Part shown: piece after piece, positions 45,794 to 49,637 of the stretch
How positions within the stretch are numbered: position 1 is the first letter of the stretch
How the letters are laid out: each line of letters opens with the position of its first letter
Source of the DNA: Brevibacterium pigmentatum
GTDB taxonomy: Bacteria > Actinomycetota > Actinomycetes > Actinomycetales > Brevibacteriaceae
Reading direction: 5' to 3'
Assembly: GCF_011617465.1 (NCBI RefSeq)
Contig: NZ_CP050153.1
Span: 62,001-126,000, forward strand
DNA length: 64,000 nucleotides
The notes under the pieces: model-generated
Database searches by the model: none
The model's input: the letters and a program-made list of their open reading frames with translations, nothing else
Told to the model about the DNA's origin: nothing
Made by a program: the position numbers and the translations under genes

Positions 45794-47743
45794 GTGTCTA
45801 CTTTCTTCGACGGTCCCGAATTCCACGGAATGGCAGCGGGCGGCAAAATCAGCCACAGCCCCGGCATGGGCGATCGGATGATGCGGGAGCTGGTGCCGTT
45901 CCTCAAGGCCGAAGGCATTGACGTCGATGATCCGAATGCGGACTTCACCGAGGCCGAATTCCACGCAGCCATGGAGAAGGCGCAGGAGGAATACAACCGC
46001 CGCCTGTTCACCCCGGTCGGTGCCCACCGCGGACTGGCTCTGGGGAAGCTGCGGTCGTTCTCCGTGGCCTCTGCCGAAGGCGACATCAAAACCGCCGAGG
46101 CTGTTGTGGCCTCCCTGCCCTCTGACCCCCAGGACTTCAACCCGAGCGTCGCGCAGGTGACCGGGGCAGCGATGGACCTCCTCGACGAATGGTTCACCGA
46201 CGACGTGCACGGACCGAAGCTCGGCGGAGTGATGGCACCGAAGTGGTCGGCGAAGAAGTCCCGCGCCGTGGCCCGCGACATCCTGGCCCTGGCGCATAAA
46301 GGGCGCGTCGTCGACAGCCTCGACCGCCTCATCACCAACAACAGCGGACGCCCCGTCCTCGAAGGGGCCATGCTCGCCGTAGCCGCCGCGGTCGTGCGGT
46401 TGACCAAGCGAAACAAGGTCTCGGGGCAGGAAGTCGTCGACGAGCTCATGCCGCTCGACGGTTATCCGGAGCCGGTGGCCGGCACCTACGGCTCCACCGA
46501 CCGAGTGTTCCAGGACGACCAGGACGTCCAGGACGGCCCTGCCGCAGACCAGGACCTGCCTGAGTGGCTCGGCGGATCGAGCGCCGAGGCGAGCGGACAG
46601 GCGACTCCCAACGCTGATCCGCAGGGCGTCGACGAACGAATGGACGAGGTCGAGAAGACGGTCTACGAGATGCCGCTCTACCAGCGCTTCCGCGACTGGC
46701 TGGCCGAGACCTACGACGACGTCGACGAGGACTCAGAGGTCTTCGACATCGCCCACCTCCTGTTCTGCATCGCCGTGTCCTCCCGCGCAGATATCAACGA
46801 ACCGGAGGGAACCGACGACCTCCTCGACGTCCTTGAAAGCTTCGCAGTCGACGGACAGGAGGAGGCCGAGAAGACCGATGGCGAATCGCCGTCGACGGTG
46901 ATCTTCCTCGACAGCCTCGAAGCTCTCGACAACTATCTCCGCTTCCGCATGGACACCGACGAGAACCCCGAACGCTGGAACGCCGCCCGCGCCCGAGCCG
47001 AGGCCGCGAGCATGCGCACCGACCCGCTGCCCTCGGCCCTGATGGCCGCAGTCGAAGCCAATGCCCTGAGTGAGGAGCAGCTCGCGCAGCCCATGCCGCA
47101 CAATCGCCTCGTCGCCGGTGTAGCCGGCATTCTCGAATGGATCGGCGACTCCCGCCCGTTGACCGGTACGGGACGGGTGAAGCGGGCCGATATCGCCGAG
47201 GCGGCCGAAAAGTTCGGCATCAAAGCCGTCGGAGTTGCGTCGAACGCCCGGTACGAAGACGGCGTGAACTATGCGCGCAGCGCCGATGAGGTGCCCGTCC
47301 TCGAAGCAATGTGGGCCGTGATGCAGAGTGCTGAGATCACCGAGATCACCGGCACCAAGGTCCGCCCGGGAAGCGCCGCCGACGAGTGGAAGAAGGGTGA
47401 GGTGAGCGCGGATACCGCACTGCCGGTCATCGGCGCCTTCATCTACGAGCGGCTGCTCGACGTGATCAACCTCGTTCCCGGAGAGGACTACGGCGCCCCG
47501 GCGATCACGATCGCCCAACGCCTCATCGAGATCCTCACTCCTGACTCGGCACCCGAACGCCCCGACCTCGACCTCGGCGAGGTGCGCGCCGAGCGACTCT
47601 CCACGCTCTTGGCAGACGAGCTGCAGGAGCTCACCGAGCTCGGACTCCTCAAAGCCGACGGTGAAACCTTCTCCGTCGAGCCGGTGTACCGGCGCATCGT
47701 CGCCGGTGCCGGTCTCATGCTGCTTGCGGGACCGGCCGAATAA
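45794..47743 (+). CDS. 649-residue protein of unknown function
   Basis: I do not recognise this protein. It lacks signal peptide and membrane segments. Residues ~1-220 are mixed helix (VGAHRGLALGKLRSFSVASAEGDIKTAE) and include a basic segment (PKWSAKKSRAVARDILALAHKGR). A variable acidic stretch (QDDQDVQDGPAADQD) follows at ~235-280. The rest is alpha-helical, with RVKRADIAEAAEKFGIKAVGV resembling a winged-helix half. GTG 45794 follows AGGAG with a 6-nt gap. It is monocistronic, divergent from the 2-oxoacid dehydrogenase operon and followed by the candidate iron-regulated RNA. Intact codon use argues for a real gene. Confidence 0.7.
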   Translation: MSTFFDGPEFHGMAAGGKISHSPGMGDRMMRELVPFLKAEGIDVDDPNADFTEAEFHAAMEKAQEEYNRRLFTPVGAHRGLALGKLRSFSVASAEGDIKTAEAVVASLPSDPQDFNPSVAQVTGAAMDLLDEWFTDDVHGPKLGGVMAPKWSAKKSRAVARDILALAHKGRVVDSLDRLITNNSGRPVLEGAMLAVAAAVVRLTKRNKVSGQEVVDELMPLDGYPEPVAGTYGSTDRVFQDDQDVQDGPAADQDLPEWLGGSSAEASGQATPNADPQGVDERMDEVEKTVYEMPLYQRFRDWLAETYDDVDEDSEVFDIAHLLFCIAVSSRADINEPEGTDDLLDVLESFAVDGQEEAEKTDGESPSTVIFLDSLEALDNYLRFRMDTDENPERWNAARARAEAASMRTDPLPSALMAAVEANALSEEQLAQPMPHNRLVAGVAGILEWIGDSRPLTGTGRVKRADIAEAAEKFGIKAVGVASNARYEDGVNYARSADEVPVLEAMWAVMQSAEITEITGTKVRPGSAADEWKKGEVSADTALPVIGAFIYERLLDVINLVPGEDYGAPAITIAQRLIEILTPDSAPERPDLDLGEVRAERLSTLLADELQELTELGLLKADGETFSVEPVYRRIVAGAGLMLLAGPAE

Positions 47744-47774
47744 AGGGCCCAGCGAAAAAGTCGGCATCAACCTG

Positions 47775-47815
47775 TTGTGTCCTCCCGGGCCCCGGGTTAG
47801 GATAGCCTATGAGAA
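47775..47815 (+). promoter_or_regulatory. Promoter overlapped by an IdeR/DtxR-type iron box
   Basis: A -35 TTGTGT (47775-47780) and -10 TAGGAT (47798-47803) are separated by 17 bp. TTAGGATAGCCTATGAGAA (47797-47815) matches 14 of 19 positions of the DtxR/IdeR consensus, with the left arm and centre nearly perfect. Such a box over the -10 would block transcription when iron is plentiful. Confidence 0.6.
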
Positions 47816-47940
47816 TTACGCAACGCGGGTCTTTCCAAAGGCAGTTGACACGCTAGCTTGAAGTGTTGGATACGGCGTGCGCGGTTCTCTCTGTTTCACG
47901 TCATGAAGCCCTCGGCGCAAATTCCGGCGCCGGGGGCTTC
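47809..47940 (+). ncRNA. Candidate iron-regulated small RNA
   Basis: A transcript from the iron-box promoter would start near 47809 and end at a strong terminator at 47905-47940, about 130 nt. No downstream plus-strand gene follows (the next gene is on the minus strand), so a stand-alone RNA is the simplest reading. The 5' end could also encode a 15-residue leaderless peptide, MRITQRGSFQRQLTR. A second promoter-like pair, TTGACA (47845-47850) and GGATAC (47868-47873), could give a shorter ~60-nt form. It is comparable in setting to the IdeR-controlled mycobacterial sRNA MrsI, but I claim no sequence homology. Confidence 0.5.
47905..47940 (+). terminator. Terminator of the candidate small RNA
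   Basis: GAAGCCC pairs with GGGCTTC, extended through a U-G wobble by CGGCG/CGCCG, giving a 13-bp stem and a 10-nt loop. A short palindrome GTTCTGTCAGAAC (47941-47953) follows. It also sits 34 bp from the convergent Lrp gene end. Confidence 0.8.
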
Positions 47941-47986
47941 GTTCTGTCAGAACTGAGTGCCCTATCGGGCGGAAGTGCCGCGTTCC

Positions 47987-48442
47987 TCATCCGGCGCCGG
48001 GACGGCGGCCCTCGGCCTCATCGAGGATGAGGAGTGAGCGGGAGGACACGACGCCCGGGACCTCGTGGATGCGGCGCAGGATCACCTGCGACAGCGCAGT
48101 GTTATCCGGGGCATTGACCGTCACCAAGGCGTCGATATCCCCGCTGACGGCTTGGACCTTCTCGACGAATGGAAGGGCTGCCAGGTCGTCACGGACCTGC
48201 GGCCAGGGGCGCTCGCCGATCTTGACGACGACGACCGCGGTCACGGTCATGCCGAGGGCCTCGCGGTCCACCTCGGCGGTGAATTTTCTGATCGCACCCG
48301 ATTCGATGAGGGTGGTGAAGCGCTTATGTGCGGCGGAGCGGGAGATGTGGACACGTTCGGCCAGCTGGCGCACGCTCAGGCGCGAGTCCTCGACGAGGGC
48401 GGCGATGATGCTGCGGTCGATGTCGTCGAGGTCGAATGCCAC
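47987..48442 (-). CDS. Lrp/AsnC-family transcriptional regulator
   Basis: A 151-residue regulator. The N-terminal helix-turn-helix (DLDDIDRSIIAALVEDSRLSV, RQLAERVHISRSAAHKRFTTL) is followed by the RAM ligand domain (TVTAVVVVKIGERPWPQVRDD, FVEKVQAVSGDIDALVTVN). Such proteins sense amino acids. I start at GTG 48442, preceded by GAAGGAG; the frame is open 41 codons further but without support. Likely targets are the adjacent etfBA operon (divergent) or the 2-oxoacid dehydrogenase operon. Confidence 0.87.
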   Translation of the reverse strand: MAFDLDDIDRSIIAALVEDSRLSVRQLAERVHISRSAAHKRFTTLIESGAIRKFTAEVDREALGMTVTAVVVVKIGERPWPQVRDDLAALPFVEKVQAVSGDIDALVTVNAPDNTALSQVILRRIHEVPGVVSSRSLLILDEAEGRRPGAG

Positions 48443-48860
48443 GGGGCGCTCCTTCACCGTTGATGTCTGCGTCTTGCCTGCGACCTCTGCGTTCAACCTG
48501 CCCTGATGCACTCGCGCGGAGAGGCGGCGATGGGCACCGGGAGGAATGGTCGGTCTCCTTCCCATTCTAGGGCCCCGCCTCGGCGAGGAGATGGCTCCGC
48601 GTCGAGGTCCCGTCGTCGACGACAGGGAACCGCCTCGGCGAGGAAAGTCCGCATGGTTGCGGAGTCCGACGCACTGGACAAATTCTGTCGATCGTTCGTA
48701 CAGTAACGGAGATATCTGTGGTGCCTACCACGTACCATGGGTGATGGACATGATCGGTTCTAACCCGGACCCGGTCAACGGACGGAAATCAGCCACCTGT
48801 AGATTATGAGACGAAAGTCTCACGCAGCTGGAACTGCTTCACGAACCTAAGGAGTCATCC
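48443..48860. other. Gene-free region upstream of etfB
   Basis: It holds two copies of CCGCCTCGGCGAGGA-like sequence (48576 and 48631), a TAGATT -10-like box (48800-48805) and a hairpin TGAGAC/GTCTCA (48807-48822) in the likely etfB leader. AAGGAG (48849-48854) is the etfB ribosome-binding site. No other gene is seen. Confidence 0.5.
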
Positions 48861-49637
48861 TTGAAGATCGCGGTGTTGGTCAAAGAGGTCCCGGATACGT
48901 ACGGCGACCGCAAGTTGAACTTGGAAACCGGGCTCGCCGATCGCGGCGCCTCGGAAGCCGTCCTCGATGAGATCGGTGAGCGTGCCCTCGAGGTCGCCCT
49001 GACGCAGAAGGACTCCGATGGCGACACCGAGGTGACCGTCATCTCGATGGCTCCCGATACCGCGACCGCGACGATCCGCAAGGGTCTGGCCATGGGCGCC
49101 GACAATGCCGTGCACGTGGCCGATGAAGGTTTGGCCGGTGCGGATCTGGGCCTGACCGCCGAGGTGCTCGCCGCGGCTCTGCGCCGCGGTGAGTTCGACC
49201 TCGTCGTCACCGGCAACGTCTCCACCGACGGCAATGGCGGAATGATGCCGGCGATGCTCGCCGAGCACCTCGACTACCCGCACGTGACCGGCCTGACGAC
49301 CGTCGAACTGACCGACGGCAAGGTCTCCGGCACCCGCGCGGTCGAAGGCGGCAAGCAGCAGGTCTCGGCCGAACTGCCCGCCGTCATCTCCATCACCGAG
49401 GCGCTTCCCGAAGCCCGATTCCCGAACTTCAAGGGCATCATGGCAGCGAAGAAGAAGCCCTTCGAGGTCATCAGCCTGTCCGATCTCGACATCGATGCCG
49501 AGGACCAGTCCGTGGCTCGCTCGATCATGGTCACCGTCGCCGAGAAGCCGCCGCGCGAAGCCGGCGAGAAGGTCGTCGACGAAGGCAATGGCGGAGTCGA
49601 ACTCGCCGAATACCTCACCAAGAACCGTCTGGCCTAA
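48861..49637 (+). CDS. etfB: Electron transfer flavoprotein beta subunit
   Basis: A 258-residue ETF beta subunit that binds AMP and, with EtfA, carries electrons from acyl-CoA and other dehydrogenases. Typical segments are KIAVLVKEVPDTYGDRKL at the start, the ADNAVHVADEGLAGADLGLTA region and LVVTGNVSTDGNGGMMPAMLAEHL. The TTG start at 48861 is supported by AAGGAG 6 nt upstream. etfA follows 12 nt downstream, and a cytochrome b gene follows etfA, forming one operon. Dehydrogenases in this window, such as the acyl-CoA dehydrogenase family gene, may be donors. Confidence 0.93.
   Translation: MKIAVLVKEVPDTYGDRKLNLETGLADRGASEAVLDEIGERALEVALTQKDSDGDTEVTVISMAPDTATATIRKGLAMGADNAVHVADEGLAGADLGLTAEVLAAALRRGEFDLVVTGNVSTDGNGGMMPAMLAEHLDYPHVTGLTTVELTDGKVSGTRAVEGGKQQVSAELPAVISITEALPEARFPNFKGIMAAKKKPFEVISLSDLDIDAEDQSVARSIMVTVAEKPPREAGEKVVDEGNGGVELAEYLTKNRLA

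Follow-up and report, generated by a model that had tools for sequence, protein, structure and literature searches.

A conserved RNA behind a putative iron box in Brevibacterium, apparently traceable to the leader of a siderophore-reductase operon

Iron-repressed small RNAs (sRNAs) are known in several phyla. RyhB and FsrA are iron-sparing sRNAs of the Fur type, and the Fur-type repressor acting on RyhB, FsrA and IsrR belongs to a different family from DtxR/IdeR. sRNAs derived from 5' leaders and regulatory leaders that sequester the Shine-Dalgarno sequence over a long range form a second general class. IsrR is described as an iron-repressed small RNA (PMC9410917). In mycobacteria, the iron-sparing sRNA MrsI (ncRv11846) is described as an RNA of about 100 nt with an IdeR box in its promoter, which is expressed after iron starvation and acts on hypF and bfrA by means of a 6-nt seed (PMC8628891). 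For Brevibacterium, growth on cheese is described as iron-limited and genes for siderophore-interacting proteins (SIP) average 3.6 per genome (PMC5719810), and the words small RNA, DtxR and IdeR are absent from the main text of that paper. Iron-uptake genes of B. aurantiacum, those for SIP among them, go down when it is grown together with Hafnia alvei, which is taken by the authors to supply iron (PMC6706770). Among the matches listed in our literature search, none dealt with an RNA at the locus described below or with an iron sRNA of Brevibacterium.

Here, we analysed a stretch of 64 kb (the window, meaning this whole stretch) from a 3.91-Mb Brevibacterium genome, in which an earlier note had proposed an IdeR-controlled sRNA. 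The RNA at this locus is like MrsI in being actinobacterial, of the ~100-nt class and preceded by a promoter with an IdeR-type box. By comparison with the description in PMC8628891, it differs from MrsI, which has a 6-nt seed for hypF and bfrA, in that searches with its linker gave no convincing target, and in that it is an allele of an mRNA leader, whereas MrsI is not described there as one. The two may also be set apart by the absence of any Rfam match at gathering score in the window and of any match to our covariance model (R1) outside Brevibacterium in a sample of the order. With RyhB, FsrA and IsrR the RNA would share its way of working, that of an iron-repressed small RNA. It resembles the leader-derived class in that its SIP-bearing allele has a structured leader with a Shine-Dalgarno sequence predicted to be paired, and that the sRNA shares this leader; the difference is that leader and sRNA are here alternative alleles, the long-range helix of one being the 3' hairpin of the other.

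The features of the locus are as follows.

45794-47743, plus strand: gene for a 649-aa protein, left flank, no Pfam match
47775-47803, plus strand: promoter read in the sequence, with -35 TTGTGT (47775-47780), 17-bp spacer and -10 TAGGAT (47798-47803)
47792-47810, plus strand: IdeR/DtxR-type iron box in its conserved register, 13/19 here
47809-47941, plus strand: predicted stand-alone RNA of ~130-135 nt (model R1), with its start placed 6 nt after the -10
47811-47822, plus strand: 5' strand of stem P1, GAGAAUUACGCA, pairing with 47878-47889, with compensatory changes between lineages
47838-47859, plus strand: candidate hairpin P2 with UUGAC loop, very conserved in sequence
47878-47889, plus strand: 3' strand of stem P1, UGCGCGGUUCUC, pairing with 47811-47822
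47891-47903, plus strand: single-stranded linker CUGUUUCACGUCA, candidate seed, conserved and predicted unpaired
47905-47940, plus strand: T hairpin (strands 47905-47918 with 47927-47940), a presumed terminator, from covariation and folding
47987-48565, minus strand: asnC, convergent Lrp/AsnC-family regulator gene, right flank

As the earlier note had said, the next gene lies on the opposite strand: it is asnC, which is followed by an ETF-domain gene. The SIP and FepB genes that follow the RNA in relatives are absent in the window. The neighbouring gene of the RNA locus was found at 85-94% identity in seven named Brevibacterium records. No Rfam family reached its gathering score in the 64-kb window, the best sub-threshold match being His_leader (18.5 bits against 49 needed), which covers the hairpin only. 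A search of plasmid records with the RNA gave no match, so a plasmid origin is unsupported, and no relative of the AsnC protein turned up when viral contigs were scanned with it.

The promoter and the overlapping 14/19 iron box had both been read before from the window, and both readings held. All 31 RNA-bearing genomes (see below) keep a TTG displaced by at most 1 base from the -35 position, and TAGGxT at the -10, while a generic promoter scan of 46500-49500 did not list the promoter at 47775, whose -35 matches 3 of the 6 consensus letters. The box as first read, TTAGGATAGCCTATGAGAA at 47797-47815, fits 14 of the 19 letters of TTAGGTTAGSCTAACCTAA, which we take to be the DtxR/IdeR iron-box consensus. 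With both strands scored, it is the top site in the window; 12 simulated windows with the same dinucleotide make-up contained no site of 14, and sites of 13 averaged 0.33. The second-best site in the window (13/19, 47792-47810) is no separate box but the first one read 5 bp further left, and by alignment this left register, not the first one, is that conserved among relatives. Boxes in the conserved register score 13-17/19 in all 31 RNA-bearing genomes and at least 15 in 23 of them, with 13-16 in genomes that lack the downstream genes ("gene-less") and 13-17 in SIP genomes (at least 15 in 18 of 19). At 13/19 the box of the window is the lowest of the 31, tied with that of L089, and position 47802 is an A only in the window (G in L089, C in the other genomes); the box of this strain thus looks slightly decayed.

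Three genes of the same genome carry an iron-dependent repressor domain, and two other SIP genes there are preceded by box-like sites, ~100-155 bp before the matched region. When a box pattern was run over both strands of this genome, it gave 14 matches against 8 for a reversed control, a weak enrichment, and of these matches we count as evidence only those that precede SIP genes; the box of the window has too many mismatches to be listed by this pattern. Two other readings of the 5' region were rejected. An ATG sits at 47809, where transcription should start, and could open a leaderless mini-gene of 15 codons, which is hardly credible given that in L083 this frame is closed by a stop at codon 7 and that the ATG is missing in 7 of the 31 genomes (L092, L094 and L096-L100). 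Likewise, for a second promoter at a conserved TTGACA (47845), the alignment of relatives shows no hexamer resembling a -10 at a suitable distance.

A covariance-model search of related genomes, which the earlier note had suggested, showed the RNA to be widespread in the genus. While BLAST with the locus DNA matched 21 of 57 genus genomes, R1, built from those 21, found one copy each in 31 of the 57, so that 21 of the sequences found are those used to build it. Across the order sample, 15 of 396 genomes had R1 matches, all of them Brevibacterium. The genus and order searches with R1 used stricter filters, and weak matches may be lost.

The genomic contexts of the RNA were then compared in 30 relatives and the window. 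In 19 of the 31, an iron box is followed by a leader of ~115 nt, a SIP gene, a FepB-like gene and asnC. In eight, the window included, the RNA and its hairpin are followed directly by asnC, with SIP and FepB absent. The remaining four are intermediates, with the leader followed by FepB only (L098, L099) or by a SIP stub (L090, L091). The statement that the transcript has no ordinary gene to serve therefore applies to the window and not to the 19 relatives, where the RNA is the leader of a SIP/FepB operon. All 19 close SIP orthologues (at least 62% identity) have the leader, the next SIP (G032) being 45% identical. Five of the 57 genomes have an orthologous ETF gene (86-88% identity) and asnC, with neither RNA nor operon in the stretch examined, and the remaining 21 have no ETF match above 45% identity.

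The gene-less form occurs in B. linens ATCC 9172, B. epidermidis NBRC 14811, B. permense VKM Ac-2280 and Brevibacterium sp. S111, and the SIP form in B. aurantiacum ATCC 9175, B. sediminis FXJ8.269 and a strain named B. permense Ln26. The FepB of B. aurantiacum ATCC 9175 matches Peripla_BP_2, and the SIP protein of this operon (630 aa, L024:6182-8071) has FAD_binding_9, SIP and O-methyltransferase dimerisation domains, the last of which is unexpected in a ferric-siderophore reductase.

Some genomes show partial forms of the operon. In L073 (G018), the SIP frame is broken near codon 28, and in L100 (G007), SIP and FepB match in pieces, which are further signs of operon loss in places. L090 and L091 keep the SIP start and the complementary codons described below, so that the helix survives with a loop of ~75 nt; their stubs differ from the allele of the window and may represent separate losses. 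L098 and L099 have lost SIP and kept FepB together with the leader helix.

The 3' end of the RNA had been called a strong terminator. The hairpin itself folds strongly, the 137-nt RNA having a predicted energy of -59.9 kcal/mol (z -3.6), a stability that 1 of 200 shuffles attained. T has a 14-bp stem with one G-U and an 8-nt loop. The sequence 3' of it is not U-rich in all relatives, so the U tract is not conserved and termination is not assured, and a terminator scan of 46500-49500 found 1 against 1.6 expected by chance. Moreover, the hairpin has another history: it corresponds to a long-range helix of the leader that has collapsed. In SIP genomes the 3' end of the leader, which contains the Shine-Dalgarno sequence (typically ACCCUCGGAGC), is complementary to SIP codons ~54-58 (typically CGC TCC GAG GGT TTC). 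The offset between the two is 175-176 nt in 19 of 19 SIP genomes, the best site beating the second best each time; it is 83 and 85 in the stub genomes (L090, L091) and 71 in the FepB-only genomes (L098, L099). In the window, the strands GAAGCCCUCGGCGC and GCGCCGGGGGCUUC are joined by 8 nt, an offset of 16 by the same measure. The strands of the T hairpin are, judged by these positions and by their pairing, homologous to the Shine-Dalgarno/codon 54-58 helix of SIP genomes.

Covariation was counted over distinct sequences, identical rows being counted once. Among 23 distinct strand pairs of the T helix, 305 of 345 cells are paired; when partners were swapped, the mean was 294.8 (sd 2.4) and none of 2000 trials reached 305, a comparison somewhat favourable to the observed value because the partner strand is the best complement in each genome. 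Compensatory changes occur in five columns: A-U to G-C in the gene-less allele and also in L100, which has SIP-type sequence; A-U to C-G in the gene-less allele and L098; G-C to A-U in L098 and L099; G-C to A-U, in another column, in L083; and C-G to U-A in L097. There are mismatches too, for example an A of the leader without a partner in L077, L093 and L094; L099 has a mismatch next to the change that it shares with L098.

When the first 330 nt of the SIP mRNAs were folded, the core helix had a mean pair probability of 0.94-1.00 and the Shine-Dalgarno sequence was unpaired at no more than 0.01 in all 19. The leader segment before it (GUUUCA..CGUC) can lengthen the duplex with the SIP coding region; against 100 shuffles, the extended duplex had z values of -1.2 to -5.1 over the 19 genomes and is significant in some and weak in others. 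The SIP codons within the helix vary little (Ser TCC in 18 of 18, Gly GGT in 14 of 18, while GGC is the commonest Gly codon elsewhere in SIP, 117 of 217), and several neighbouring codons vary equally little; these counts use columns with at least 18 of the 19 sequences, since the frame of L073 breaks.

Within the RNA, P1 was chosen by inspection. Its fifth pair differs by lineage and is Watson-Crick in each form (A-U, C-G or U-A), and its end alternates between CGCA/UGCG and GGGA/UCUC. In a set of 28 distinct sequences, P1, P2 and a candidate pseudoknot together had 36 cells changed on both sides against 17.9 after shuffling (0 of 500), with 88.4% of cells paired as opposed to 82.6%, and the pairing was lost once the partner was slid along. 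For two of five measures, the numbers of two-sided pairs and of pair types, the excess over shuffling was not clear (87 and 51 of 500 shuffles reached them), the fifth and eighth pairs of P1 fail in 11 and 13 of the 28 sequences, and RNAalifold on all 31 sequences gave 5 pairs only, none of them of P1. In longer mRNA pieces, P1 had a probability of at least 0.85 in 17 of 23 genomes and 0.61 in two, and was hardly predicted in L095, L096 and L091; L100 was left out of this scoring, its anchor being missing. P1 is thus supported by covariation, though not in every member. P2 is plausible: it has two-sided changes in one pair within the eight gene-less genomes and none across the 31, and one of its pairs is mismatched in the window. 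The pseudoknot between the P2 loop UUGAC and the linker GUCA(A), in which 89.6% of cells pair with almost no variation, is not claimed, its sole two-sided change coming from the badly aligned L100; a UGAAG/UUUCA pairing was discarded, as on inspection it breaks without compensation.

How the RNA evolves where the operon is gone was measured as mean pairwise differences per site among the eight gene-less genomes. The linker and its flank (47884-47903) had 0.027, the T hairpin 0.048, the iron box 0.074, the RNA body (47811-47900) 0.103 and the -35 region 0.209. Fourfold sites had 0.228 in the 649-aa gene, 0.259 in asnC and 0.144 in the ETF gene, and the adjoining spacers, whose alignments are rough, 0.387 upstream and 0.465 downstream. 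A 16-nt variable segment inside the RNA (47868-47883), picked after the alignment had been viewed, had 0.259. Since the value for the body is not far below that of the ETF fourfold sites, the case for selection rests on the linker and the hairpin; with the claim limited to these two, the gene-less RNA seems to be selected without a downstream gene.

These rates bear on the reading that promoter, leader and hairpin are functionless leftovers of a deleted SIP-FepB operon with at most incidental transcription. The locus is clearly that of the operon with the operon itself gone, the box is weakened in the window's genome, and searches with the linker complement gave no target. Against this, linker and hairpin are nearly unchanged in the eight gene-less genomes while the adjacent segment and the spacers have diverged like neutral sites, and the pairing of the hairpin has been preserved through compensatory changes. 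We regard such a relic as unlikely.

In a tree of the RNA, the eight gene-less RNAs form their own clade (support 0.889), whereas in a tree of asnC and ETF the gene-less genomes are mixed with SIP genomes, the gene-less L083 and the SIP-bearing L071 being 0.012 apart. The simplest reading of the two trees is that the gene-less allele arose once and that recombination through flanking sequence later exchanged the alleles. Such exchange, probable from the intermixed alleles, would also suit a translational or attenuation switch conserved solely for the control of SIP, with a gene-less allele that is young, spread by recombination and not yet decayed, and the Shine-Dalgarno sequence is predicted to be locked in all 19 SIP mRNAs. 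Yet the 16-nt segment has diverged like fourfold sites right beside the slow linker, and because a segment inside the RNA has done so, the gene-less allele seems old enough to have decayed. A role in cis alone therefore appears rather improbable.

The linker is predicted to be unpaired with a probability of 0.70-0.94 across the eight gene-less RNAs. In SIP genomes, where it reads TGTTTCATACGTC in many, the corresponding part of the leader is able to pair with the SIP codons that directly follow the helix. When up to 3 mismatches were allowed, a 17-mer complementary to the linker matched, in the window's genome, only the RNA itself and a site near a contig end that we take to be parS-like. The 13-mer complement, searched with at most 1 mismatch in the eight gene-less genomes, yielded no convincing target common to them and also matched the RNA and presumed parS-like sites. 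Two candidates were judged unconvincing: TGACGTGAAACAT, matched in 7 of the 8 gene-less genomes, and TGAAGTGAAACAG, which lies in a coding region in 5 of the 8, the window's genome not among them. TGACGTGAAACAT lies upstream of what we take to be an rpmH promoter in the 6 of these 7 genomes that were inspected; it is kept at one place in at least 6 Brevibacterium genomes (L122, L128, L129, L119, L139 and L140) and is near a contig end in several. These searches used long complements, and pairing through short seeds may have escaped them. RNA duplex energies against the two other SIP genes of the genome had no shuffled control and were excluded from the evidence.

The linker opens with TGTTTCACGT, which is similar to one half of a site that we take to be parS, and the hairpin, which could also serve the convergent asnC, stands between two converging genes. 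The locus might on these grounds be a DNA or 3'-end element, namely a terminator that serves both asnC and the gene upstream, together with a site bound by a regulator. However, the conserved blocks reach ~95 nt past the hairpin on the side opposite asnC, the two strands of P1 change together like those of an RNA stem, and the RNA occurs without the 649-aa gene upstream (that gene lies within 3 kb upstream of it in 14 of the 31 RNA-bearing genomes), while TGTTTCATACGTC of many SIP genomes is not parS. An element of this kind is quite unlikely.

We therefore lean towards the reading that 47809-47941 encodes a stand-alone sRNA controlled by an IdeR-type box, which is an allele of an mRNA leader and probably acts in trans via its linker. 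What the earlier note called a candidate IdeR-controlled sRNA stands to the extent that a gene-less RNA lies behind the box, in a family with members in 31 of 57 genomes, boxes of 13-17/19, a covarying stem and a slow linker and hairpin; the origin from a leader had gone unseen. The homology, the two alleles, the covarying long-range helix or hairpin and the slow evolution of the gene-less RNA are computed results, as is, less firmly, P1. From them we infer that the unit is transcribed, bound by IdeR and responsive to iron, that the Shine-Dalgarno sequence is locked in vivo, that the hairpin terminates the RNA and that the RNA acts in trans, and the step from a conserved RNA to an iron-regulated trans-acting sRNA is likely.

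In the proposed mechanism, a SigA-like promoter would drive the non-coding unit 47809-47941. Under iron-replete conditions a DtxR/IdeR-type repressor would cover the -10 and the start site, and in iron-poor cells the RNA would be transcribed. In SIP strains it would head the mRNA and presumably throttle SIP translation via the long-range helix. In the strain of the window, where the operon is absent and the helix halves are joined by the 8-nt loop, the hairpin would end the RNA, and the freed RNA, made up of P1, P2, linker and 3' hairpin, would expose CUGUUUCACGUCA and pair with other mRNAs in trans.

A bolder form of this proposal is possible, and we put it forward tentatively: the two alleles may be interchangeable and swapped by recombination between species, one a cis leader locking a siderophore reductase and the other a free trans-acting iron sRNA with the helix as its terminator. 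The gene-less, stub and FepB-only forms would then be steps of the birth of an sRNA, and the leader may act in trans too.

To our knowledge, the origin of new sRNAs is an open question with few traceable cases. As far as comparative sequence analysis can tell, the conserved iron-box RNA described here is real and has a traceable origin, with operon-bearing, partly deleted and gene-less forms coexisting at one locus of one genus. Because the covarying helix can be followed through the change, the birth of an sRNA from an mRNA leader may be testable in cheese bacteria, and from the SIP allele it is further predicted that the use of ferric siderophores is under RNA control.
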